From: an uncultured Clostridia bacterium
GTDB lineage: Bacteria; Bacillota; Clostridia; Oscillospirales; Acutalibacteraceae
NCBI GenBank assembly: GCA_944384995.1
Contig: CALWVN010000003.1
Location: forward strand, 1-64,000
Length of the DNA: 64,000 nt
Direction of reading: 5' to 3'
The notes under the pieces are model-generated. The model saw only the letters and a list, made by a program, of their open reading frames with translations, had not been told where the DNA came from and ran no database searches. Positions 45,344 to 60,812 of this stretch are shown in pieces; the stretch's first letter is position 1; the number at the start of each line of letters is the position of its first letter. The position numbers and the translations under genes were made by a program.

Positions 45344-45787
45344 ATGCGAACGAAAACCAGATGTATACTTTCCGTGATTTTGATCGTGCTTCCCATAATC
45401 CCGATCGTATGCAGTTCGATCGGTAAGCATGTTTTGTACGCCGATCCGAATGCGGGCTGGGCACTTATGGGCATTGCCGTACCACTTGGCGAAATGAGCA
45501 TGCTGCTTTATTTCACGGCGTACCCGATTCTTTGCGCCGTTGCAGCTGTTGGGATGTATTGCTTTTCCCGGGAGGACATTCCCAAAAAGCTGGATAAACT
45601 GCTGCTTGCCTTCCCAATCGCGATGGGGGTTTGCGGGCTTCTGTTTGTTGTTCTGATGCTGCTTGGCTTGGGGAATGGAATCATCCCTGTACTGGTTGCC
45701 ATGGTGGCTTCGCAGCTCGGCTGGCTTGCCTGCAATATTGCGGCACTGGTTCACTTGCGGCGGGAGAAACGGAAAAACAGCGCTTGA
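45344..45787 (+). CDS. Small integral membrane protein, unknown
   Basis: A 147-residue protein with about four membrane helices (CILSVILIVLPIIPIVC, LYFTAYPILCAVAAVGMY, LLAFPIAMGVCGLLFVV, IIPVLVAMVASQLGWLA) and a basic C-terminus. ATG 45344 lies 6 bases after GAGGTG. It is probably co-transcribed with the preceding membrane gene. No family recognised. Confidence 0.72.
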   Translation: MRTKTRCILSVILIVLPIIPIVCSSIGKHVLYADPNAGWALMGIAVPLGEMSMLLYFTAYPILCAVAAVGMYCFSREDIPKKLDKLLLAFPIAMGVCGLLFVVLMLLGLGNGIIPVLVAMVASQLGWLACNIAALVHLRREKRKNSA

Positions 45788-45811
45788 AGCATAAAGTATA
45801 GGAACTTTTCC

Positions 45812-45839
45812 TTGCAATTCCCGAAAAGTGTGTTATACT
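45812..45839 (+). promoter_or_regulatory. Sigma-A promoter of pheST
   Basis: TTGCAA (45812-45817), 16 bases, TATACT (45834-45839). The transcript begins with the T-box leader. Confidence 0.75.
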
Positions 45840-45849
45840 ATTAGTCGCA

Positions 45850-46095
45850 AACCGAACTGCAAACGCGAGGAAAAAGGCAGTAGGCGAAAGCTTTCCCGCC
45901 CGCAAGAGAGAATGCGTCATGGGCTGTAAGCGCATTTCGGGCGTCTGTTCGCTGAAATTTCACTTTGGAGCGGCGCGGCTGAACAAAGAGTAGGTCGCGA
46001 CGGGTGCCGCCGTTATCGGGCGCGGGAGTGTCGGCTCCTTTACAAACAGGGTGGTTTAAGGCTTTTGCGCCGTCCCTTTTGGGGCGGCGTTTTTT
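45850..46095 (+). promoter_or_regulatory. T-box riboswitch leader (tRNA-Phe responsive)
   Basis: The leader ends with the T-box segment CAGGGTGGTTTAAGGC (46048-46063) and a 9-bp terminator (46068-46076 with 46081-46089) followed by TTTTTT. In T-boxes the UGGN bulge pairs with the uncharged tRNA 3' end; here N is U, matching a discriminator A, as in tRNA-Phe. A candidate specifier TTC lies at 45959-45961 in GAAATTTCAC. Uncharged tRNA-Phe would favour the antiterminator and raise pheST expression. Confidence 0.82.
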
Positions 46096-46134
46096 GTGTT
46101 CGCACAAAAAGTACAGACGGAAAGGAAGATAGCT

Positions 46135-47187
46135 TTGAAGCAGAAACTCGAAGAGATCCGCGCGCGCGCCGAAGCGCAGCTCAAGGACGCCGCACGGCTC
46201 GAGGATTTGGAAGCGCTTCGCGTGGCCGTGCTCGGCAAAAAAGGGGAGCTGACGGCGATCTTAAAGAGCATGGGCACGCTCTCCAAAGAGGAGCGCCCGA
46301 AAATGGGGCAGCTTGTCAACGACGTGCGCAAAGATATTGAAACCATGCTCGCGGAAAAAACGCAGGAATTAAAGGCGCTCGCCGAAAAGCGGGAGATCGA
46401 AAGCACGCCGCTTTTCGATCTGTCTATGCCCGCTGATCTCACCCGCGGGTCGTATCATCCGATTACGCTCGTGCAGCGCGAATGTGAGCGCGTGTTTAAG
46501 TCCATGGGCTTTACCGTGGAGGATTACGCCGAGATCGTCAGCGACTATGAATGCTTTGAGTCGCTCAATATCCCGAAAGCGCATCCCGCGCGCGATATGC
46601 AGGATACGTATTACCTCGAAAACGGGCAGCTTTTGAAAACGCAGACCTCCGCCGCGCAGAACGCGATCTATAAGAAATATAAGGATGCGCTCATAAAAGA
46701 CGGCGTACCGATCAAGGCGATCTTCCCGGGACGGTGCTTCCGCAATGAAGCGACCGATGCCTGCCACGAAAACACCTTTTTCCAGATGGAAGGCGTGATG
46801 GTCGACAAGAACATCTCCATCTCGAACCTGATCTACTTTATGAAGACCATGCTTTCCGAGGTGTTCCAAAGGGATATCAAGGTGCGGCTTCGTCCGGGCT
46901 TCTTCCCGTTCGTCGAGCCGGGTTTTGAATTGGACATCAGCTGCCTCATCTGCGGCGGCGAGGGCTGCGCTTCCTGCAAGCACAGCGGCTGGCTGGAGCT
47001 TTGCCCGTGCGGCATGATCCACCCCGTGGTGCTCAAAGAGGGCGGCATCGACCCCGAGAAATACACGGGCTTTGCGTTTGGCTTAGGTTTAACGCGCCTT
47101 GCCATGATGAAATACGGCATCAAGGATATCCGCGACTTAAACAGCGGCAGCTTGAAATCGCTTTCGCAGTTTACGGACGACGAATAA
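46135..47187 (+). CDS. pheS: Phenylalanine--tRNA ligase alpha subunit
   Basis: A 350-residue catalytic subunit of the (alpha-beta)2 enzyme that charges tRNA-Phe. The N-terminal coiled coil (about 1-85) contacts tRNA. The class II core shows PADLTRGSYHPIT, FPGRCFRNEATDACHE (motif 2), RPGFFPFVEPGFELD and the motif 3 end FAFGLGLTRLAMMKYGI. A Cys-rich insertion (CLICGGEGCASCKHSGW) is common in clostridial PheS. The TTG start at 46135 lies 6 bases after AAGGAAG. It is controlled by the T-box leader. Confidence 0.97.
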   Translation: MKQKLEEIRARAEAQLKDAARLEDLEALRVAVLGKKGELTAILKSMGTLSKEERPKMGQLVNDVRKDIETMLAEKTQELKALAEKREIESTPLFDLSMPADLTRGSYHPITLVQRECERVFKSMGFTVEDYAEIVSDYECFESLNIPKAHPARDMQDTYYLENGQLLKTQTSAAQNAIYKKYKDALIKDGVPIKAIFPGRCFRNEATDACHENTFFQMEGVMVDKNISISNLIYFMKTMLSEVFQRDIKVRLRPGFFPFVEPGFELDISCLICGGEGCASCKHSGWLELCPCGMIHPVVLKEGGIDPEKYTGFAFGLGLTRLAMMKYGIKDIRDLNSGSLKSLSQFTDDE

Positions 47188-47206
47188 GCGGGAAGGAGGA
47201 GAACTT

Positions 47207-49567
47207 ATGTTTTTATCGATGAATTGGCTTTCGGATTTCGTGGATTTTTCGGGGCTTGACAAGTTAGAGCTCATCCGCCGCTTTTCGCTGTCCACCGCCG
47301 AGGTCGAAAACGAGATCTTTTTTAAGGGCAAGGATCTTTCCGGCGTCGTGGTCGCCGAGATCAAGTCCGTCGAGCCGCACCCCGATTCGAAGAAACTGCA
47401 TCTTCTAAAGGTGGATGCGGGCGACGGCGCTTTGACCGACGTGGTCTGCGGCGCGCCGAATGTGCGCGTCGGGATGAAGACTGCGTTTGCCAAGGTGGGC
47501 GCGCAAATCGGCGACATCACCATCGCGCCGCGCAAGCTCGCGGGCTACCCCTCCAACGGCATGTGCTGCTCGGAAAAGGAAATCGGCATCAGCGACGACA
47601 ATTCCGGGATTATGGATATCACCGACGATCTTCCCAACGGTACGGACTTGAAAGCAGCTTACGAGATCGACGACATCGTGTTCGAGGTGGATAACAAGTC
47701 CCTAACAAACCGCCCCGACCTTTGGGGGCATTACGGCATCGCGCGCGAATTCGCCGCGCTCGCCGGCAGGCCCTTAAAGCCTTTGGATACGGTGGATCTG
47801 CACGCCTACGATGCGCTTCCGAAGGTGGATTTGAAGATCGAAGACCCGCTGTGCCTGCGCTACTCCTGCCTGCAGGTCGAAAATATCCACACCGCGAAAA
47901 GCCCCGTCAATATGCGCATCCGCCTGTATTACTGTGGGATGCGTGCGATCAACTTCTTAGCGGACTTAACGAACTATCTTATGCTTGAAATGGGGCAGCC
48001 GATGCACGCGTTCGACTCGCGCAAGGTCGAAAAGCTGCGCATCAAGCGCTTTTCCGAGCCGTTTACGTTCCAGACGCTCGACGGCGTAGAGCGCGCGATC
48101 GACGAAAACACGCTGATGATCTGCAACGGCGACACACCTGTGGCGATCGCGGGCATCATGGGCGGGCTTGACAGTGAGATCGTGGAGGACACCACGACGC
48201 TCACGCTGGAATCCGCCACGTTCGACGCGGTCTCCGTGCGCAAGTCCACGGTGCGTCTGGCGCACCGCACGGACGCGTCCATGCGCTATGAAAAATGCCT
48301 TGACCCCGAAATGACCGTTCCCGCCATCGCGCGGTTTGTGAAGCTGCTCATGGATACCGACAAAGACGCGCGCGTTGTATCGTCCCTGACGGATGAATAC
48401 GCCCGCCGCTATCCGGAGGTGGTGCTGGACTTCGACAAGGCGTATGTGGATCGCTACACCGGCATCGGGATCGCGAACGACACGATCATTCAAACGCTGC
48501 GTTCGCTGGGCTTTGAAGCGGAAAATCACGGTGACAACTTCACCGTGCGCGTGCCGAGCTGGCGTGCGACCAAGGACGTCACCATCAAGGCGGACATCAT
48601 CGAAGAGATCACCCGTATTTACGGCTACGACAACTTCGATGTGCATACCGCTTTGGCACCGCTGTATCCCGTGCGTCCCGAAACGGAAAAGACCGTCGAG
48701 GACCGCATCAAGGATATGCTGGTCAAGCGCTTCTCCCTGCATGAGGTGCACTCCTATATCTGGGCGTATTATGACGAATATAAGGCGCTGGGACTCCCCA
48801 TCGAGGACAACGTTAAGCTTGTCAACGCCACCAATCCCAACATCGAGACGCTGCGTCGTTCCATCGTGCCCACACAGCTTTGTCAGGTGCGCACGAACGC
48901 GTCTTATGCGCCGGAGTTCGGGTTGTTCGAGATCGGCAGAACGGTAGAGGGCCTGGATGAAAACGGGCTGTGCCGCGAGTACAAAAAGCTTGCCGTCACG
49001 CTGTTTTCTCGCACCAAATCCACAGAGACGCTGTACTTCGAGCTGCGCGATATGCTTGCACAAATCGCGGATGAGATCAAGCATAAACCGCTTACCTTCA
49101 CCGCGAAAACCGCGACGCATGCCTATCAGCACCCGCGCAACCTCAACACGGTGCTGTGCGACGGCGTGGAGCTCGGTGAGATCGGCGTGATCTATCCGAC
49201 CGTCTGCAAAAAGATCGACAAAAAAGCCGCGATCGTGTATGCGGAGCTGGATGTGCACGCCTTTGCCGCCATTGCGGACGCGGGGATCGTCTATGATGAG
49301 CCATCGCGCTTCCCGGAAATGGAAGCGGATCTCACGTTCCGCAGCGAGACGTATGCGCCCATCGGTGATGCGATCAAAAAGGTCAACTGCCCGTGGCTAC
49401 GCAAGGTGGAGGCGCTGGACACCTACCGTGACGAAGCGGGCAAGTCCATTACTGTGCGCCTGACGTTCTCCGACAACACGCGCACCCTCACACGCGAGGA
49501 GGTCACGGCGGTGGTCGATTCCATCATCGCCGCCCTCGCAAAAGAGAATATCCCACTGAAGCAGTAA
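47207..49567 (+). CDS. pheT: Phenylalanine--tRNA ligase beta subunit
   Basis: A 786-residue partner of PheS. An N-terminal EMAP/OB tRNA-binding domain lies at about 40-150 (VEPHPDSKKLHLLKVDAG), then B3/4 editing domain sequence (NKSLTNRPDLWGHYGIAREF), a B5 domain (MQPMHAFD region and later EITRIYGYDNF), a pseudo-catalytic class II core, and a C-terminal ferredoxin-like anticodon domain (SRFPEMEADLTFR to the end). The length is typical. It follows pheS by 19 bases with a GGAGGAG site. Confidence 0.97.
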   Translation: MFLSMNWLSDFVDFSGLDKLELIRRFSLSTAEVENEIFFKGKDLSGVVVAEIKSVEPHPDSKKLHLLKVDAGDGALTDVVCGAPNVRVGMKTAFAKVGAQIGDITIAPRKLAGYPSNGMCCSEKEIGISDDNSGIMDITDDLPNGTDLKAAYEIDDIVFEVDNKSLTNRPDLWGHYGIAREFAALAGRPLKPLDTVDLHAYDALPKVDLKIEDPLCLRYSCLQVENIHTAKSPVNMRIRLYYCGMRAINFLADLTNYLMLEMGQPMHAFDSRKVEKLRIKRFSEPFTFQTLDGVERAIDENTLMICNGDTPVAIAGIMGGLDSEIVEDTTTLTLESATFDAVSVRKSTVRLAHRTDASMRYEKCLDPEMTVPAIARFVKLLMDTDKDARVVSSLTDEYARRYPEVVLDFDKAYVDRYTGIGIANDTIIQTLRSLGFEAENHGDNFTVRVPSWRATKDVTIKADIIEEITRIYGYDNFDVHTALAPLYPVRPETEKTVEDRIKDMLVKRFSLHEVHSYIWAYYDEYKALGLPIEDNVKLVNATNPNIETLRRSIVPTQLCQVRTNASYAPEFGLFEIGRTVEGLDENGLCREYKKLAVTLFSRTKSTETLYFELRDMLAQIADEIKHKPLTFTAKTATHAYQHPRNLNTVLCDGVELGEIGVIYPTVCKKIDKKAAIVYAELDVHAFAAIADAGIVYDEPSRFPEMEADLTFRSETYAPIGDAIKKVNCPWLRKVEALDTYRDEAGKSITVRLTFSDNTRTLTREEVTAVVDSIIAALAKENIPLKQ

Positions 49568-49585
49568 AAGCAAAAGCAGCAAAAC

Positions 49586-49619
49586 ACGGCGGCGAACCGA
49601 AAGGGTCGCCGCCGTTCCT
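49586..49619 (+). terminator. Intrinsic terminator after pheT
   Basis: ACGGCGGCGA (49586-49595) pairs with TCGCCGCCGT (49606-49615), then TCCTTT. Confidence 0.75.
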
Positions 49620-49647
49620 TTACTTATCCTCCAAAAAGTTGTATACT
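49619..49647 (+). promoter_or_regulatory. Promoter of the chromate transporter pair
   Basis: TTTACT (49619-49624), 17 bases, TATACT (49642-49647). The leader is short, with GGGAGGTG before ATG 49672. Confidence 0.5.
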
Positions 49648-49671
49648 GTCAGCAGATTTGGGAGGTGCCGT

Positions 49672-50235
49672 ATGAAGAAGCATGTGATTTTACGCAAGCT
49701 CTTTTTTTCGACCCTGTATTTGAGCGCCTTCACGTTTGGTGGAGGATACGTCATCGTCACGCTGATGAAAAAGAAATTCGTAGACAAGCTCCACTGGATC
49801 GAGGAAAACGAAATGCTCGACCTTGTCGCCATTGCGCAGTCCTCGCCCGGTGCGATCGCCGTCAACGGCGCGATCGTGGTCGGCTACAAGCTGGCAGGGA
49901 TTTTGGGGGCGCTGGTTGCGATCATTGCCACGATCATCCCGCCGTTTGTTATCATCGCGCTCATTTCCGTGTTTTATAACGCTTTTCGCGAAAATTTCAT
50001 CATCAGCAGTCTGCTCGAGGGCATGCAGGCGGGCGTGGGCGCGGTCATCGCCTCAGTCGTGTTCGATATGGGGCTTGACGTTGCACGCGAAAAAAGCGCC
50101 GCGTCCGACGTGATTATGGCACTCAGCTTCATTGCCGCATGCTTTTTAGACGTGAATGTGGTGTATATCGTGCTCGTTTGTGCGGCACTCGGCGTTGTCC
50201 GCACGCTGCTTCAAAAAAGGAGGCGTGCGAAATGA
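49672..50235 (+). CDS. Chromate transporter family protein, first half
   Basis: A 187-residue short-chain CHR membrane protein. It carries the family motifs FTFGGGYVIV and SSPGAIAVNGAIVVGYKLAG, with about five or six membrane helices. Short CHR proteins come as pairs that together equal a full-length ChrA, and here the partner follows with an ATGA overlap. ChrA exports chromate by proton antiport; the real substrate of anaerobe members is not established. ATG 49672 follows GGGAGGTG. Confidence 0.88.
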   Translation: MKKHVILRKLFFSTLYLSAFTFGGGYVIVTLMKKKFVDKLHWIEENEMLDLVAIAQSSPGAIAVNGAIVVGYKLAGILGALVAIIATIIPPFVIIALISVFYNAFRENFIISSLLEGMQAGVGAVIASVVFDMGLDVAREKSAASDVIMALSFIAACFLDVNVVYIVLVCAALGVVRTLLQKRRRAK

Positions 50236-50789
50236 TCTATTTGCAGCTGTTCTGGAGCTTTTTACAGGTCGGGCTGTTCAGCTTCGGCGGCGGATATGCC
50301 GCCATGCCGCTGATTGAAGAACAGATCGTCACACGGCACGGTTGGCTGAGCATGCAGGAGTTTACGGACCTCATCACGATCTCTCAATTGACGCCCGGCC
50401 CCATCGCCGTCAATTCCGCGACGTTTGTCGGCATCAAGATCGCGGGCATCCCCGGCGCGCTGGTCGCGACGCTCGGCTGCATTCTGCCGTCCTGTATTCT
50501 CGTGATCGTGCTTGCGAAGCTGTATTTCAAGTACCGCAACATGCAAATGCTGCAGGGCGTGCTCGGTTCTTTGCGCCCCGCGGTGGTCGCCATGATCGCA
50601 GCGGCGGGCGTTTCGGTGCTCGTCACGGCGTTTTGGGGCGGTGAAGTCATTTCCTTTTTCGGTACGAATTGGGTGCTTGTCGCGATTTTTCTTGTGTGCT
50701 TCGTGCTGCTGCGCGCGACCAAGCTCAACCCAGTTTTCGTCATGGTGCTTGCCGGTGTTTTGAACCTCGGCGGTACATGGGTGATATGA
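50232..50789 (+). CDS. Chromate transporter family protein, second half
   Basis: A 185-residue CHR protein with the motifs FSFGGGYAAMPLIEEQIV and TPGPIAVNSATFVGIKIAG. It is homologous to, but distinct from, the preceding protein, the usual heterodimer arrangement of short CHR transporters, with opposite membrane topologies expected. ATG 50232 overlaps the upstream stop, so the two are made together. The unit is followed by a GC drop into an AT-rich accessory block. Confidence 0.88.
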   Translation: MIYLQLFWSFLQVGLFSFGGGYAAMPLIEEQIVTRHGWLSMQEFTDLITISQLTPGPIAVNSATFVGIKIAGIPGALVATLGCILPSCILVIVLAKLYFKYRNMQMLQGVLGSLRPAVVAMIAAAGVSVLVTAFWGGEVISFFGTNWVLVAIFLVCFVLLRATKLNPVFVMVLAGVLNLGGTWVI

Positions 50790-50923: not shown

Positions 50924-51058
50924 TTGACAAATATTCATAAAAATGATACTTTCTTATTGAAAAAAGTATAAACTTTTTTCAAAGAGGGTAGGGCGGGGAA
51001 TTTATATAGTAATGTACGACAACGCTGTATCCGACCATATATAACGGATACAGCGTTG
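50924..51058 (+). promoter_or_regulatory. Leader module A (promoter, hairpin, G-rich box, hairpin)
   Basis: TTGACA (50924-50929), a 17-base spacer and TACTTT preceded by TGA. The RNA would begin with GAAAAAAG/CTTTTTTC (50959-50966/50973-50980), then the G-rich box GAGGGTAGGGCGGGGA (within 50981-51000), then a 14-bp stem CAACGCTGTATCCG/CGGATACAGCGTTG (51020-51033/51045-51058). The same order of elements recurs at 53128 and 55149. The remaining 140 bases to the gene at 51199 show nothing more. Confidence 0.6.
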
Positions 51059-51198
51059 AATTTTGTTGATTGTCATAAAGAGGCATACAGCAATTTTTTG
51101 TAAAATGACTAATAGAGTTGCAAAAGCAGAGTGAAAAGGCAAGGATGGGGATTCCAATGTTTCTTTAAATTAGGTTTTAGAGAGGAGTGCAGCGTGTT

Positions 51199-51642
51199 AT
51201 GAAAAAAATTATCCTTATATGTGTGGCTGTTTTAATAATCGTAGTTATGTTTTTACTACTCTTTCCGGCAAATATGTTGGGTATAAATTCGGAAAGGACA
51301 GCTTTCATGCTAAACGTCGACCCCCTCAGCACGATTTACGGGACTGGTGAAGCAATCACCGTAAAGGCAAGGCTCCAAAACGAAACGATGCATGCTTATA
51401 TGGTTTCGCATAGCGCTCGGCTTCTTTCCGTTTCGTACGTAAAAGTGGGGGAGGAAAGAGAAGAAATCATCGCTCCCGCAATTCACCATTCCAGTTATAT
51501 AGCACCTGGCGGCTCTTTTGTTATAGAAGATACAGTTCAAATTGATGAGCCAGGTCAGTACACAATATACGTTGATGCACAGATGTGGATAAATGATGTT
51601 CTATATAAATACTCAAAATCCTTCGATGTAATTGTAAAGTAA
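51199..51642 (+). CDS. Secreted or membrane-anchored Ig-like small protein
   Basis: A 147-residue protein with an N-terminal hydrophobic segment (IILICVAVLIIVVMFLLLF) and a roughly 115-residue beta-rich ectodomain (VDPLSTIYGTGEAITVKARL, IAPGGSFVIEDTVQI, GQYTIYVDAQMWI). The pattern fits an immunoglobulin-like fold of the intracellular-proteinase-inhibitor or YtkA type, but I cannot name the family. ATG 51199 follows GAGGAG; a GTG at 51187 sits on that site. It ends 15 bases before the serine protease and shares its low GC, so the two may act together, for example as inhibitor or chaperone and protease. Confidence 0.72.
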   Translation: MKKIILICVAVLIIVVMFLLLFPANMLGINSERTAFMLNVDPLSTIYGTGEAITVKARLQNETMHAYMVSHSARLLSVSYVKVGEEREEIIAPAIHHSSYIAPGGSFVIEDTVQIDEPGQYTIYVDAQMWINDVLYKYSKSFDVIVK

Positions 51643-51657
51643 GAAAGGATACTAAAA

Positions 51658-52899
51658 ATGAAAAAACGTTTTTTGTGCTTGTTTTTAATTCTATCTTTAC
51701 TGGGTTCATTAACATTTGTCAACACCGCTTCTGATAATTCTGATAAGGAAATATCCAAAATTGAGGCAAAAAGCATAGTCTGTGATGAGGTGTTTTCCAC
51801 AATTTTTGTAGAATTAAATTTGGAGAGAATGTATGAATCAGATGCGCCGTCAGATTATGCGGGAATTTATGCCGATGAAAATGGAACTCTTGTTTTATGT
51901 GTTGCGAACGGTAGTGCAAATAAATATGAAAATATTGTCAACAACATAGTATCTAGAAAGACAACTGCCTATGCTCTTCAAACTTTTGAAACGGACGAGG
52001 CACCTATTGTGCGAGTTGAAGAAAAAGAATTCACATATAATCTATTAAATACTATTCAAGATGCACTTGATCCTAAGATGAGCACATTTAAAATTCAACA
52101 AACTGCAATTAAACAAGAAAAGAATGTTGTAGAAATAACGATTGAAGATGAATTGTTAATAGAAGAAATATCACAGTATTTGTATGGCTCTGTTTCTGAT
52201 TTTAATCCTGAAGCGGTAGACTTTATTGTTGCAGAGTCAGAAAAGGTTGTACCAACAGCAAACTACGCATATAATGGTGTGAAATTTTACCATACCTTGT
52301 TTGCATCTACTTATGGAACACTTGGCTTTAACGGCTCTTACACCGATTCATCTGGAAAAGTACACTATGGTGTGTTTACAAATGCGCATGTAGCTCCTGT
52401 CGGTGAAAAAATGAAAATATCCGCTTTAAAAACAGTAGGAACCACATTATTTAGCTATGTTGGTGGAAGTTTGGATATTGCTTTTGTAGAGTTCAATTCC
52501 GGGTGGGCAGTTACAGATAAAATGCTAAGTGCATCAGATACAAATGCTATATATAGTGCGGCTACGGCGAGCGAATTTTACGAAGGTGCATTGACAAACA
52601 AATATGGAGCAACAACAGGTAAGCAATCAGGTAAGATATTAAGCACAAGCGTTTCCATTGATGTTGAGTATGATAGTGGAAATAAATTGATAACTGATGT
52701 TTTTAAATTTTCCAATAAAACTGAAGGTGGGGATAGTGGAGGACCCGTTGGTAAACAGCAAACCAAACAGGTCTTTAGACTATATGGAATAACTTTTGCG
52801 GGTCCCAAGAATACTAATACTTACGGATATGGAATTAAATTGAGCAACATTAAAAAAGCCTATAATATCAAAGTTTATGGGACAAATGGTTGGTCATAA
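51658..52899 (+). CDS. Secreted S1-family serine protease with pro-region
   Basis: A 413-residue chymotrypsin-fold protease. The signal peptide MKKRFLCLFLILSLLGSL is followed by a pro-region of about 190 residues and then the catalytic domain. The triad is His in FTNAHVAP, Asp in GSLDIAFVEF and Ser in EGGDSGGPVG. The pro-region plus small protease resembles the alpha-lytic/streptogrisin group, whose pro-peptides guide folding; that is inference. The gene is far more AT-rich than the housekeeping genes around it and uses A/T-ending codons, which points to horizontal acquisition. ATG 51658 follows AAGAAAGGA. A terminator lies at 53018. Confidence 0.88.
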   Translation: MKKRFLCLFLILSLLGSLTFVNTASDNSDKEISKIEAKSIVCDEVFSTIFVELNLERMYESDAPSDYAGIYADENGTLVLCVANGSANKYENIVNNIVSRKTTAYALQTFETDEAPIVRVEEKEFTYNLLNTIQDALDPKMSTFKIQQTAIKQEKNVVEITIEDELLIEEISQYLYGSVSDFNPEAVDFIVAESEKVVPTANYAYNGVKFYHTLFASTYGTLGFNGSYTDSSGKVHYGVFTNAHVAPVGEKMKISALKTVGTTLFSYVGGSLDIAFVEFNSGWAVTDKMLSASDTNAIYSAATASEFYEGALTNKYGATTGKQSGKILSTSVSIDVEYDSGNKLITDVFKFSNKTEGGDSGGPVGKQQTKQVFRLYGITFAGPKNTNTYGYGIKLSNIKKAYNIKVYGTNGWS

Positions 52900-53017
52900 T
52901 TTCTTTAACAACAGTCAAATCTAAATGCTACGCTGACTCATATGTTCTTCAAACTCGATACAGTTTGAAGAAAAACACGGCACGATCGAAAACGATATGA
53001 AATAAAGCAAGTAAATA

Positions 53018-53052
53018 AAAACCGTGCAGTCCGAAAACTGCACGGTTTTTTT
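53018..53052 (+). terminator. Intrinsic terminator after the serine protease
   Basis: AAAACCGTGCAG (53018-53029) pairs with CTGCACGGTTTT (53038-53049), then TTT. The stretch 52900-53017 holds no gene. Confidence 0.88.
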
Positions 53053-53127
53053 GAAGGACAGGGACAAAGGCAAACGGTCAATTCTATATCATGAACTGAC
53101 TAAATCTGCCAAAGCCCCAAAATTCTA

Positions 53128-53276
53128 TTGACAAATTTTAATAAAATATGATAACATATTGGTAAGAAAACTATGCTTTTTGTAAAACGGGGGATATAGT
53201 GGGGGAGAAGCGTAGCATATCCTGAGCAGGCGCTGTATCCGACGAACGGGGGACGGATGCGGCGCCTGGCTTTTTT
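53128..53276 (+). promoter_or_regulatory. Leader module B (promoter, hairpin, G-rich box, terminator-like hairpin)
   Basis: TTGACA (53128-53133) is followed by ATAAAATATGATAACAT, like modules A and C. An A-rich/T-rich arm pair (AAGAAAAC, TTTTTG) follows, then a G-rich box CGGGGGATATAGTGGGGGAG (53188-53207), then a 13-bp stem AGGCGCTGTATCC/GGATGCGGCGCCT (53228-53240/53255-53267) ending in GGCTTTTTT. In this copy the last hairpin is a good intrinsic terminator upstream of the gene at 53408. No gene is seen between 53277 and 53407. Confidence 0.6.
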
Positions 53277-53407
53277 AAAAAGTAGTTCGGTATGCTATGC
53301 AACGCCGGTTGAAGCGACACTTCAAACCCGAACGGCAGAACAAGACGGGAGGCAGAGCAGCATATCTTGATTTCTCTGTTGCGGCGCTGAAAAGAAGGGG
53401 ATTGATT

Positions 53408-54118
53408 ATGAAAACACAGTATTCGATTCGTCTGTACCGTTCGTGGCGGTTTTACCTATTGTGCGTGCTGATTTTATGTATTTCGCTGTTGTCGCTTATC
53501 TGGAATTTCTACATACTTGCACGCGTGGGCTTTACCGAAATGTTTTTCCCGTATAAAAATGCAGTTATCCCGCAGGAGACCTTGGAGCAAATGCAGAGCA
53601 TATACGGGGATTTATTTTTGGGGCAGCAAAACAATAATATGGCGTTTGTGGAGGGCGTGATCGCCGTTGTCGCCTATGTCTTAAGTCAGATCGAGTATTT
53701 AGCCGTGAGCGTGCTTGCGGCGATCGCGCTGTTCGGCAACCGGCTGTATGTGCGCGAGGATGACACGCACATCTACTTCGCACCGCGATTGTTTTTCCGC
53801 GTCGCCAAACGGGATATTTGTAAAATCGAGCCCGTCGCGGTGGAAGAGCTTGGTTTTTGGGATCGGCTTTCAAGCTGCAATTTCAGCAGGAAATACCTGT
53901 ATTATTTTACCTGCTATGACACGGTGCTGATCCTCTCCTCCAAGGATGAGGCGGGTATGGCAAAGCTCACAGCGGATATACAGTCGCGTCATAATTTGAC
54001 CGAGAAAGAGGAGTTCGGCGAGGAAGCCAAGCGGTTTACCTGGTGGGAAGTGCTGTTTCTGTTGTGGCTGTGTTCGCAAATCTATTTCACGGTGATCTCT
54101 TTTATCCGAGGGTGGTAA
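53408..54118 (+). CDS. Membrane protein of unknown function
   Basis: A 236-residue protein with an N-terminal helix (FYLLCVLILCISLLSLIWNF), a second hydrophobic stretch (VEGVIAVVAYVLSQIEYLAV and LAAIALFG), a cytoplasmic middle with beta-type sequence (NRLYVREDDTHIYFAPRLFF, about 125-200) reminiscent of a PH-like/YcxB domain, and a C-terminal helix (VLFLLWLCSQIYFTVISF). ATG 53408 follows AAGGGG. It is probably co-transcribed with the next membrane gene, 52 bases downstream, behind leader module B. I recognise no named family. Confidence 0.72.
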   Translation: MKTQYSIRLYRSWRFYLLCVLILCISLLSLIWNFYILARVGFTEMFFPYKNAVIPQETLEQMQSIYGDLFLGQQNNNMAFVEGVIAVVAYVLSQIEYLAVSVLAAIALFGNRLYVREDDTHIYFAPRLFFRVAKRDICKIEPVAVEELGFWDRLSSCNFSRKYLYYFTCYDTVLILSSKDEAGMAKLTADIQSRHNLTEKEEFGEEAKRFTWWEVLFLLWLCSQIYFTVISFIRGW

Positions 54119-54170
54119 TGCTCGGGAAATCGCTCAGGTATAAATACGGTTCTATTCGAGGGGGATAAAC

Positions 54171-55064
54171 ATGGAAAAAACATATACTCGCAAGCAGCTT
54201 CTCTGCCGGTATATTTTCTGTGTGCTTTTCAAATTGATTCTTCTGCTCGCGGCGATTTGGGTTTTACAGGAGATAACAAACGGTGTAGACTACGTTTCCA
54301 TGATGTCGCTGTATTATTGGCTGCCAATTCTATGCGCCGCCGTGCTTTGGGGCTTGTGCCGGGAAGTACCTTATTTTGTGACGCTGCTGCGCCACCGGGA
54401 TTTGACCGGCAACCGCAAGACGGTGCGCGCCCTGTACCCGAAAAAGCTCAAGGTGCTTTTGAACATACCGGCTGTGCTGTTTGCGCTTGTTTTTGTTTTT
54501 GTCAGCTACAGCGAAGCGTATTTCGGCTTTTTTCATCAAAGCACAAAGTCGCAGGAACTGCTGCAACGGTTCGCGCTGGAAAATTTTACGGCGTATACTT
54601 ATGCAGAAAGCACACCTGCGTTCCAATGGGGTGGGGATGAATATGAGTTCTACTCGGTCTATTTGCTGAATTGGTCCGAATCCTATGATTACGGCGTCGC
54701 GAAAACGGATGATACCGAACAGAAACAGGAAAACGCGGGAGGACGGGTTTCCATATTATACATGGATAATGTTCCGCAGTGGCTTGCAGATCAGGAATAC
54801 GCACACTTACAGGAAATCACAAACAGCGGCTTTAGCATTTTTGACGACGAAGAGGATATGAAAATGCGTAATACGCTGCATCCGTTGGAAATAGACGGCT
54901 GCACAGGGTTTTGGCGGCAGATCCCAAGAGAGACGGGACAGGAATATTGCGTGACGCTGCTGGGGGAGAATCGGTTTTTGGATTTATGGCTTTCTGCAAA
55001 CAGTGGGGAAATCGACCTTGAAAAGCTGATTGAAGAAGCCACCGCGCAAATGCAGGCTGCGTAG
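54171..55064 (+). CDS. Membrane protein of unknown function
   Basis: A 297-residue protein with three N-terminal membrane helices (FKLILLLAAIWVL, LYYWLPILCAAVLWGL, VLLNIPAVLFALVFVFVSY) and an ectodomain of about 175 residues rich in acidic and aromatic residues (DEYEFYSVYLLNWSESYDYG, TGQEYCVTLLGENRFLDLWL). No catalytic motif is evident. ATG 54171 follows GAGGGGGAT. It shares the transcription unit of leader module B. Family unknown. Confidence 0.72.
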   Translation: MEKTYTRKQLLCRYIFCVLFKLILLLAAIWVLQEITNGVDYVSMMSLYYWLPILCAAVLWGLCREVPYFVTLLRHRDLTGNRKTVRALYPKKLKVLLNIPAVLFALVFVFVSYSEAYFGFFHQSTKSQELLQRFALENFTAYTYAESTPAFQWGGDEYEFYSVYLLNWSESYDYGVAKTDDTEQKQENAGGRVSILYMDNVPQWLADQEYAHLQEITNSGFSIFDDEEDMKMRNTLHPLEIDGCTGFWRQIPRETGQEYCVTLLGENRFLDLWLSANSGEIDLEKLIEEATAQMQAA

Positions 55065-55148
55065 CGAACAAAATGCCGCCCATTTTCCTGTTGTGCAGCC
55101 GTAAATCCATGCAACAAAATGTTGCATGGGAAAAATCGTTGCAAAACA

Positions 55149-55290
55149 TTGACAAAATTCCATAAAAATGCTAATCTGCCAATAGAGGAAAATATTTATT
55201 TTTTCCAACAAGAGGGTAGAGCGAGGACAATTCCATAGCAAAAACACAACGGCGCTGTATCCGACCAAAGCGAAACGGGTACAGCGCCGT
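55149..55290 (+). promoter_or_regulatory. Leader module C (promoter, hairpin, G-rich box, hairpin)
   Basis: TTGACA (55149-55154), a 17-base spacer, TAATCT with TGC before it. Then GGAAAA/TTTTCC (55187-55192/55201-55206), the box GAGGGTAGAGCGAGGACA (55212-55229), and a 15-bp stem ACGGCGCTGTATCCG/CGGGTACAGCGCCGT (55249-55263/55276-55290). The box is nearly that of module A. The stem keeps GCTGTATCCGAC in its 5' arm. No T-run follows in this copy. The gene begins at 55358. Confidence 0.6.
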
Positions 55291-55357
55291 TTCAATATGT
55301 GACGAATTTGCACATAAATTTTAACCGGCGAGCTTCTGAAAGAGGGGCAGCGATAGT

Positions 55358-56107
55358 ATGACAAAAAGCGTTGTTCGATTTTCCGTTATCCGGCTGATTT
55401 TGTCGGCCGTGAATTTCTTTTCGATCGGCGGCATGCTCCTCTTCTTTTTAACGGAAGGGACGGTGCATGTTCCGTTCCTTGTGGTTTACATGCTCTTGAA
55501 TATCGCCGTTGGTGTCGTAATGGAGCGAATTTTGCGACGGAATTTGCACATTGGGTTTTATACTGTAGAACACAATGCGGAGGAAAGGAAAATGCAGAAA
55601 TTTAAACGATTTGCATGGAACACCTTGTGCGCCACAGGCGTATGGATCTTATACAATACATTTTTTCTGTTTATACATATTCTGTATGACTTTAGCACAA
55701 TAGAGTGGGATTTCGGCTTTGAGCCGATGCCGGTTTTTTATGATACGGTCGTGCCTGTCATATTGCTCTTCCTGTATGTATTATCCTTCATAGGCTTTTT
55801 CTTCCTGGGCAAAACCAAGCTTGCAGCAACCGGGTCGCACATGCTGAATTTTATGTCAGTGGCTTTAGGCTATGCGTTTTTGTGGGCGCTTGTGGGGTGG
55901 GTGTTTGATTCCGAGCATACGAGCATGGTTATGACAAATTTCCCCATCATCTGTGTAGCGGATGCGTTCAATTCCGATAGTATTTACGACCTGCACTATG
56001 ATGTACAGGCAAACGCTTTTGTCATGGCGATCCCGTTTATTTGCATGTGTATAGGCCTTACGGTGCGGCAAATTATCAAGCATAGAAGACGCAGCAGCGC
56101 TGCGTAA
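55358..56107 (+). CDS. Polytopic membrane protein of unknown function
   Basis: A 249-residue protein with about six membrane helices (ILSAVNFFSIGGMLLFFL, FLVVYMLLNIAVGVVM, TGVWILYNTFFLFIHIL, VPVILLFLYVLSFIGFFFL, FMSVALGYAFLWALVGWV, FVMAIPFICMCIGLTV) and a basic C-terminal tail. No family recognised. ATG 55358 follows AGAGGGGCAG. It is the first gene after leader module C and precedes the VanZ-like gene by 56 bases. Confidence 0.72.
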   Translation: MTKSVVRFSVIRLILSAVNFFSIGGMLLFFLTEGTVHVPFLVVYMLLNIAVGVVMERILRRNLHIGFYTVEHNAEERKMQKFKRFAWNTLCATGVWILYNTFFLFIHILYDFSTIEWDFGFEPMPVFYDTVVPVILLFLYVLSFIGFFFLGKTKLAATGSHMLNFMSVALGYAFLWALVGWVFDSEHTSMVMTNFPIICVADAFNSDSIYDLHYDVQANAFVMAIPFICMCIGLTVRQIIKHRRRSSAA

Positions 56108-59187: not shown

Positions 59188-60759
59188 TTACGCCGCAAGG
59201 TCGCGCATGCCTGCCGATGCTTGCAGGATCCAGCGCGCATCCGCAGCGGATATCCCGTCTTGTGTGTATACATTGGCGGCAAGGGCCTGCGCATAGTCCA
59301 GATACCGCATGCCTGCCGCGGCCTGCAATACCCAGCGCGCATCCAAGGCATTAATCTGCCCGTCCTTGTTGACGTCACCGAGCAGTGTCTCCACCGTAAC
59401 GCGCACCACCGTGTAGGTGCCGACCGGCTGTGTGTTCCCGCTTTCGTACACATACACGGCACTGCCGTCATCGGCAAAGCCCAGCGAATACCCGACAGGC
59501 GACGTAAAGATGTCTGAGAGCGCAGCATCACTGTATACATACAGGATATTCTCCGCACGGTATACGCTGACTTGTGCGTCGGGATTCAGCAAAAGCCCGG
59601 GGGTGTAGCTTTCCGCAGCCAATGCGGGATATGTCAATACATATGACGCTGCGCCGTCGGAGGTATAGCGAACGCCGGTTGGGACATGGCTTTGCGCAAA
59701 AGTGGTTCGATCCGCTTCACTTTCAGAATAATATCGGGTCGTAGCGTCTGCGCCGATCAGGAGGTAATCGTAAAACGTACCGGCTGTGTCCGAATCGTCC
59801 CATGTAACGTCCACGGCGTACCAATTGCCGTCTTCCATCTTCACATAGTTCCACGCGTGCGGGCCGCCGGCATCGCCTATGATCTGGATGCAGGGGATCC
59901 CCTCGCGGTCACAAAGCATCTTAAAGGCTTCGGAATATCCTTCGCATACCGTGATGTGCGGCTCTAAAAAGACGCTGGTTGCGTAATACGAGGTGTCATA
60001 TTGGAATAGTGTGTCATATTTCACACTGCCCGCGATCCAGTCATGGATATATTTTATCTTTTCATAGCGCGTGTTGCCGCGCACCGTAAAGTTGTCAACG
60101 ACCTGCATCATGGCGGCATAATCCGAAGCGACGGCTTCCCATGAATTATAGCCGGCGGGCAAATAAAGATACGCAATCAGCCCGGTGCACTCCACATGTG
60201 AAACGGTCGCGCTGATTTTATGGGATTCTTTAACCAGATCAAGCGTGAAATTGCCCAGCCAAAACAGATCGGGGCGGTCGCTGACAATGGCGGAAAAGCC
60301 GCCGACAAGCGCTTGCAGGATCATATCTACATATTCCTGCGGAATATCCACGACCTCGTCGCCGTTTTGGTCGATGTAGATTTCCGCATCAAAAGTGATC
60401 GGTGTTGTAAGCGGGATCTCAACGGCGGCAAGCCCGGATTCCTGTACGGACGGCTGCTGCGCAAACGCGGTTACGTCTTGGACTGCCAACGCGTCGTAGA
60501 CATCTTTTTGCATCCGGTTCAGGCTTGTATAAAAAAGATACGGTGCGTCCGGATCGCCGGTTTGGAACTGTGCCGCTGTAATGGCAGAAGCACCGTTTGC
60601 GTTTACGGCAGGTGCCGGATATGTACGGTCAAGCTCATAAACGCCGTCGATGCCGCGGACAAGGACTTCATCGGTCGCCGCCGCGATAGCCCCGATTCCC
60701 AATGTGCCGAGCAGCAGCGCAAGAGCAAGCAGCAGGCTTACCCATTTGACCTTTTCCAT
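59188..60759 (-). CDS. Secreted transglutaminase-like protein with C-terminal dockerin
   Basis: A 523-residue exported protein. The signal peptide is VSLLLALALLLGTLGIGAIA. A transglutaminase/protease-like domain lies in the middle (about 230-340) with the triad Cys in VCEGYSEAF, His in GPHAWNYV and Asp in YAVDVTWDD. The last 60 residues form a type I dockerin with two calcium-binding repeats: GDVNKDGQINALDARWVLQ and a second ending DGISAADARWILQ. Dockerins bind cohesins on scaffoldins or the cell surface, so the protein may be part of a cellulosome-like complex; no cohesin is in the window. Start 60759 is preferred over 60765 by spacing to AAGGGGG. Confidence 0.88.
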   Translation of the reverse strand: MEKVKWVSLLLALALLLGTLGIGAIAAATDEVLVRGIDGVYELDRTYPAPAVNANGASAITAAQFQTGDPDAPYLFYTSLNRMQKDVYDALAVQDVTAFAQQPSVQESGLAAVEIPLTTPITFDAEIYIDQNGDEVVDIPQEYVDMILQALVGGFSAIVSDRPDLFWLGNFTLDLVKESHKISATVSHVECTGLIAYLYLPAGYNSWEAVASDYAAMMQVVDNFTVRGNTRYEKIKYIHDWIAGSVKYDTLFQYDTSYYATSVFLEPHITVCEGYSEAFKMLCDREGIPCIQIIGDAGGPHAWNYVKMEDGNWYAVDVTWDDSDTAGTFYDYLLIGADATTRYYSESEADRTTFAQSHVPTGVRYTSDGAASYVLTYPALAAESYTPGLLLNPDAQVSVYRAENILYVYSDAALSDIFTSPVGYSLGFADDGSAVYVYESGNTQPVGTYTVVRVTVETLLGDVNKDGQINALDARWVLQAAAGMRYLDYAQALAANVYTQDGISAADARWILQASAGMRDLAA

Positions 60760-60812
60760 GTGCATGTACCCCCTTGGATAAATTTTATGGTTTGCCGTTT
60801 TTGTACGGCGCC

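Follow-up and report, generated by a model that had tools for sequence, protein, structure and literature searches.

A recurrent promoter and structured leader at the head of Rhs genes and of candidate orphan immunity cassettes in a lineage of uncultured Clostridia

Three modules in a clostridial contig

The stretch of 64,000 nucleotides (nt) analysed here, hereafter "the window" (positions 1-64,000 of contig CALWVN010000003.1 of an uncultured Clostridia bacterium), carries on its forward strand three modules of ~145 bp each, consisting of an extended -10 promoter, a G-rich box (G-box) and a long hairpin with an invariant GCTGTATCCGAC; these modules, their further copies and their association with genes of the Rhs/YD-repeat type are the subject of this article. 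An earlier note, made from the letters of the window, had claimed a common order of elements in the three modules, and all of these elements were located in the sequence. Module A (50924-51059, + strand) has TTGACA at 50924-50929 and, behind a 17-nt spacer with ATAAAA, the -10 hexamer TACTTT at 50947-50952 with a TG upstream of it, followed by a 5′ hairpin (50957-50982), the G-box (50984-50999) and the long hairpin (51020-51058). In module B (53128-53276, + strand) TTGACA (53128-53133) and the -10 hexamer TAACAT (53152-53157) are separated by an 18-nt spacer, the G-rich box lies at 53189-53207 and the hairpin at 53227-53268, and the six T residues reported to follow the latter are present at 53271-53276; here, instead of a 5′ hairpin, CTATGCTT pairs with AAGCGTAG on either side of the G-box. 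Module C (55149-55291, + strand) comprises TTGACA at 55149-55154, a 17-nt spacer, TAATCT at 55172-55177, the G-box at 55212-55227 and the hairpin at 55248-55291. All three lie upstream of genes whose products, judged by eye, are secreted or membrane proteins, as had been said of them.

The exact 12-base 5′ arm GCTGTATCCGAC occurs in the window at modules A, B and C only and twice more in the genome, both times within protein genes; with at most two mismatches 15 occurrences were counted vs 4.3 expected. The three leaders fold far better than their dinucleotide shuffles (z from -4.5 to -6.6), and inspection of the arms bore out both that A-T pairs of A have become G-C pairs in B and C and that G-U pairs replace Watson-Crick pairs in B and C. 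Nor did the module match an existing Rfam family, which the earlier note had named as a refutation: a scan of the window at the gathering score returned only three tRNAs, and the sole module-overlapping match of a permissive scan of the block was NiCo, with 19.9 bits vs a cut-off of 37. A leader peptide was considered and rejected, A having a short ATG frame of 10 codons and B and C having stops and no start there.

Further copies of the module

A covariance model built from A, B and C and searched against 197 relatives gave strong copies only in the genome of the window and in two others of its genus. A second model, from 17 copies, was run on 39 genus genomes and 398 family genomes, and a third, from 18 copies, on the same 39 genus genomes and 395 relatives, the latter yielding no additional copy above noise; a second subfamily was found in genome G152 by reading the Rhs loci of other members of the genus, and a motif search added two more, one in G152 and one downstream of an Rhs gene pair in the genome of the window. 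The covariance-model check put forward in the earlier note, together with the reading of Rhs loci and the motif search, brought to light copies outside the locus, the total being 21 in four of the 39 genus genomes: six in the genome of the window (G000), five in G168, seven in G161, two of which are degraded, and three in G152. The copy at G168:C3:108044 is identical in sequence to module A and has the same score (151 bits, A being a training copy). Two alignments were used: one of 18 rows, which omits the two degraded G161 copies and the G168 copy that is identical to A, and one of 17 rows (16 distinct) restricted to the main subfamily.

Scores below ~40 bits were taken as noise because reverse-strand matches to the copies reach 33 bits. 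Outside the genus, the 17-copy model gave in the 398 family genomes three matches of 32-38 bits, lying mainly over the promoter and the 5′ part. Within the genus, six weak matches of the 18-copy model (28-40 bits) were all terminator-like hairpins on inspection, the gene context having been read for two of them, and weaker matches of up to 27 bits occur in other genus genomes and in G168; among the 395 relatives, 29 non-genus genomes were matched at up to 34.5 bits, and the best six matches, seen as alignments, were terminator-like, with the gene context read for three of these. A pattern of the hairpin core matched 12 of 150 family genomes, one being that of the window; the other 11 contained 12 matches, vs 7 for the reversed control pattern, and in none of the 12 were promoter and G-box found on inspection. 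At one locus (L013), which lies between unrelated genes, the same arm recurs within a perfect hairpin of 10 bp. The exact main-subfamily pattern had no match in viral contigs and nine in a named genome collection, where four stretches, in two metagenome-assembled genomes, are known copies; the other five, from other bacterial groups, lack promoter, 3′ arm and any match to the 18-copy model and are therefore taken as chance.

The long hairpin as an RNA structure

Over 18 distinct copies, 93.9% of the cells of the long helix are paired, vs at most 46.5% when the partner is slid by 1-3 columns. Changes on both sides affect six of the 13 helix pairs, a figure equalled in 11 of 500 shuffles, and the doubly changed cells number 16 vs 4.8 in shuffles (none of 500 as high), both counts being inflated by the kinship among copies. 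Subfamily 2 swaps three inner pairs at once (U-A → C-G, U-A → A-U and U-A → C-G) and, while retaining the GGG...CATAGCAAA box, builds its hairpin from other paired bases; since the helix is rebuilt with different pairs, it is to be regarded as real. Furthermore, the helix cells include 21 G-U vs 3 A-C, and the structure therefore fits the strand of the promoter and of the gene; by the same count a DNA operator is disfavoured, as G-U pairs would disrupt an inverted repeat of that kind. These data indicate a covarying helix on the strand of the gene.

The conservation profile, computed as mean pairwise identity over 14 of the 21 copies (the intact main subfamily), climbs at the -35 box and drops behind the hairpin, and within the module it is uneven: in bins of 10 columns the identity is 0.87 in the G-box, 0.94 in the arm and 0.49 in the spacer. 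Uneven conservation and covariation in 18 copies together uphold the earlier view that a selected RNA structure, rather than simple duplication, is at hand. A short stretch, TATGTGATGAAT, is common to many copies behind the hairpin. A pairing of GGGGACAA with the tail TTGTCTTT, seen by eye in only some copies, was dropped.

Outside the helix, the part kept in both subfamilies is GGG...CATAGCAAA, which would be the likeliest recognition site and a candidate for binding. Among the one-mismatch matches to the CATAGCAAA pattern, of which a minority were inspected, one in genome G151 lies before what we take to be mraZ and is presumably due to chance.

Genes behind the copies

Open reading frames read downstream of the copies place ten of them before an Rhs/YD-repeat gene, namely two before a full-length rhs (2184 aa on contig C2 of the genome of the window; contig C9 of G161), five before a truncated rhs and three before an rhs remnant; nine of the remaining copies precede a small secreted or membrane gene and two are degraded. 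The five truncated genes, all outside the window, keep the core and a variable C-terminal domain and are followed by a small gene, whereas the remnants were called by eye, that of copy G161.d being the weakest. The Rhs core family TIGR03696 was found in all four rhs proteins run on NCBIfam, three others were matched by an rhs-core query, and one C-terminus matches Pfam Hydrolase_2, a family of cell-wall hydrolases.

Within the window, module A is followed by genes for a 151-amino acid (aa) protein (51187-51642, + strand), by eye secreted or membrane-anchored, which matched no known family and is a candidate orphan cassette gene, and for a 413-aa trypsin-like protein (51658-52899, + strand), by eye secreted, which reaches 19.8 bits with Pfam Trypsin (cut-off 20.6) and had no match in NCBIfam or among solved structures; no Rhs link was found for either gene. 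Behind module B lies the gene for a 236-aa membrane protein (by eye) of what is here called the B-family (53408-54118, + strand), a candidate orphan immunity protein; five module copies precede members of this family, one with an intervening 262-aa gene, and one module-linked member, in G168, has an in-frame stop. The next product, a 297-aa membrane protein by eye (54171-55064, + strand), is 42-48% identical to that of a gene ~10 bp behind the full-length 2184-aa rhs of the same genome, which is its sole homologue in the 39 genus genomes and occupies what would be the position of the cognate immunity gene. A weaker Rhs link may exist for the 249-aa membrane protein (by eye) behind module C (55358-56107, + strand), whose first ~52 residues are 57-60% identical to those of proteins in an Rhs array of G170 and, in G185, behind a module-like promoter. 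An anti-phage library gave no match for five window proteins.

Some neighbouring features, mostly seen by eye, deserve mention. Long runs of small genes in L188 (2803-7794) and L146 (423-6116) resemble immunity-only arrays, and one L188 gene resembles the 262-aa gene behind a module in L054. In G152 (L140, 10802-14846), an Rhs cassette headed by a module is immediately preceded by three apparent large serine recombinase genes. REP-like (repetitive extragenic palindromic) palindromes around GACAGGGGACGG...GTGTC are found just before several modules (L055, L056 and L128), and in G185 (L128) a REP-like sequence replaces the module from the -10 onward. A different repeat, GCCGGCACAA...GCAGGGCGC...GAACCGGCCGCTG, recurs in orphan arrays of G185 (L120, on G185:C15), once behind a module-like promoter. 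Elsewhere in the window, a 525-aa transglutaminase-like protein (59188-60765, - strand) has near its end a dockerin-like repeat that falls below the Pfam cut-off.

A probable promoter and leader for toxin and candidate orphan immunity genes

The module probably serves a lineage-specific polymorphic-toxin system of the Rhs/YD-repeat type as its promoter and structured 5′ leader, and the block of the window is likely an immunity-only orphan array. The architecture, its recurrence and the helix are observed: the module heads full-length rhs genes and also lies at the 5′ edge of what would be displaced cassettes holding a toxin end with its immunity gene or immunity genes only; each cassette would then be likely to have its own promoter and leader, so that displaced immunity genes, presumably the small membrane proteins, may retain their own transcription, starting at the module promoter. 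It is plausible that the hairpin and its T-rich tail attenuate this transcription by partial intrinsic termination, which a protein or RNA bound at the candidate site GGG...CATAGCAAA, between the G-run and the hairpin, might relieve; one possible antiterminator would arise if the G-box paired with the 5′ arm. The module would also represent a sequence tag for finding candidate orphan immunity genes that have no recognisable domain.

The tails behind the hairpins are T-rich on average, with a mean score of 3.31 over 15 related tails (the four of subfamily 2 being merged into one), vs a background median of 1.05, and none of 20,000 resamplings reaches that mean; the rhs copies end in T5 and B in T6, and six comparison terminators scored from 1.64 to 4.88 by the same T-score.

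Several observations weigh against the module being the leader of an Rhs system with the window as its orphan array. The tail background was drawn from random window positions, coding ones included, and the scores are low in C, G000.2a, G168.5a and G161.a. A consensus terminator scan missed all three window hairpins, an outcome to which its loop limit of 8 contributes, since loops of 11 or more are thereby excluded; a simple consensus promoter scan detected B and missed A and C because of their weak -10 hexamers, which agree with the consensus at only three of six positions, and its total of 12 promoters shows no excess over shuffles (12.2). No rhs core lies in the window, the sole match of its genome (E up to 1e-10) being on contig C2; immunity function is deduced from gene position, and the membrane character of the products is judged by eye. 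B-family genes occur in nine of the 39 genus genomes, six of which have no intact main-family module adjoining, and in G156 and G170 similar arrays were found and no module. Finally, the rhs core is present in 17 of the 39 genus genomes and the module in four; the core being far wider, the Rhs system can do without the module, an optional addition specific to this lineage.

Among the other explanations, a constitutive promoter followed by an mRNA-stabilising or processing leader, whose hairpins would guard the 5′ end or serve as RNase sites with no regulation, is possible but doubtful. It would agree with the extended -10 promoter, with the weak T tails of several copies and with the 5′ hairpin near the predicted start, which is formed in nine of 17 folds of cut transcripts, ending ahead of the 3′ arm, and has three of its seven pairs changed on both sides; yet the tails are T-rich overall, by eye the subfamily 2 transcript would start near the G-run without a 5′ hairpin, and the preservation of the CATAGCAAA box across subfamilies as the arms change fits recognition better than mere stability. 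About as doubtful is a bistable attenuator in which the G-box would hold the 5′ arm as antiterminator until the 3′ arm takes its place to form the terminator, a ligand or protein on the CATAGCAAA box setting the balance. In the same register, G-box and arm pair in 90.5% of cells vs at most 64.9% when slid, and 12 of the 17 cut folds contain this pairing at a probability of 0.85 or more; if G-U is counted, all 10 positions of the B-type box GGATATAGTG are paired, and for the two rhs copies the energies of the cut and the full fold lie only 2.8 and 2.2 kcal/mol apart. On the other hand, a composition control nearly matches the pairing (mean 0.66 vs 0.50 for the shuffled upstream stretch), and from 7 to 83 of 100 upstream shuffles pair as well as the real G-box; these controls also count against the antiterminator step of the Rhs-leader reading, where the antiterminator is therefore treated as a possibility only. 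Moreover, no pair is changed on both sides, the shuffle test being uninformative here as the arm hardly varies, five of the 17 cut folds do not contain the pairing (G168.B, G161.a, G161.e, the rhs copy G161.b and a degraded copy), and in subfamily 2 the register is lost, the two copies that were folded showing no more than a short pairing, GGGGC:GCCCC.

The possibility that the modules are borders of a mobile or recombining element, kept alike by copying and with an incidental RNA structure, is very unlikely. The copies do sit at cassette borders, and the segment 50733-53034 (2,302 bp, comprising module A with its two downstream genes) is identical in the window and in the sister species G168, beside an upstream flank (45708-50699) with 330 differences (6.6%), from which a recent exchange of the cassette with module A follows; module B and its 236-aa gene are 90.8% and 97.4% identical, respectively, between the two genomes. 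However, the identical block begins ~190 bp before module A, inside a chromate-transporter gene, and identity within the module is patterned and the helix covaries. Thus, of the mobile promoter cassette that the earlier note had envisaged, the movement of module A with its cassette stands, whereas the uneven conservation argues against plain recent copying. Least probable of all is a small RNA gene that ends at the hairpin and acts in trans: promoter, predicted transcript of ~110 nt and T-rich end (in B, two rhs copies and subfamily 2) would suit it, but several ends are weak terminators and the copies read, bar two degraded ones, share the sense of the adjacent gene or gene remnant.

The earlier suggestion, a cis-regulatory RNA of a new kind or an element shared by a regulon, is partly supported by the outside copies, the covariation and the absence of an Rfam match, and is to be amended in that the module also heads Rhs toxin genes and orphan cassettes, possibly as a shared switch for genes of bacterial rivalry. 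A more specific proposal, distinctly unlikely as it stands, is a family of signal-responsive attenuator RNAs travelling with Rhs cassettes and sharing a signal through GGG...CATAGCAAA, with rhs copies near balance and orphan copies biased to termination. If this were true, a single leader would put the toxin gene under the same signal as all orphan immunity cassettes.

Comparison with known systems

Transcription attenuators and T-box leaders combine a promoter-proximal leader, a hairpin with a T-rich tail and, upstream, a G-rich stretch able perhaps to sequester one of the arms. The module resembles them in these traits, its tails being T-rich on average and the G-box superficially like the T-box antiterminator sequence; it differs in that it has no room for a specifier stem and no Rfam T-box match, that B and C lack a leader peptide and that the alternative pairing is not clearly above the composition control. 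The open-licence literature, subscription journals being mostly outside this scope, yielded nothing that links Rhs or polymorphic toxins to a leader RNA, an antiterminator or an RNA motif; within it, the kind of array is known and the unit of promoter and structured leader was not found.

Polymorphic-toxin systems accumulate orphan immunity genes. Few cases are known, in the available portions of the sources, of how the expression of orphan immunity genes is kept up after displacement (PMC3150448, PMC7043789). In the orphan rhs-CT/rhsI and cdiA-CT/cdiI modules, truncated toxin ends and immunity genes are arrayed behind the full-length gene, and the orphan region gives rise to transcripts and to an orphan immunity protein (Poole 2011, PMC3150448). 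As far as the available part of that article goes, the layout of the array is common to those modules and to the present cassettes, whereas a conserved promoter with a structured leader at each orphan border is described only here, where immunity-only arrays bear it too (PMC3150448). In Salmonella, one conserved promoter, P2, serves the main and the orphan rhs ends and stands beside different toxin types (Starsta 2020, PMC7043789). The present module is like P2, as described in the part of that source available, in that main and orphan units share a single conserved promoter; P2, however, lies inside the rhs reading frame, whereas here the promoter is intergenic and followed by a covarying hairpin leader, and unlike P2 the module also precedes rhs itself and immunity-only cassettes (PMC7043789). 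A promoter and leader recurring at the cassette borders would thus be one answer to the problem of orphan-gene expression.

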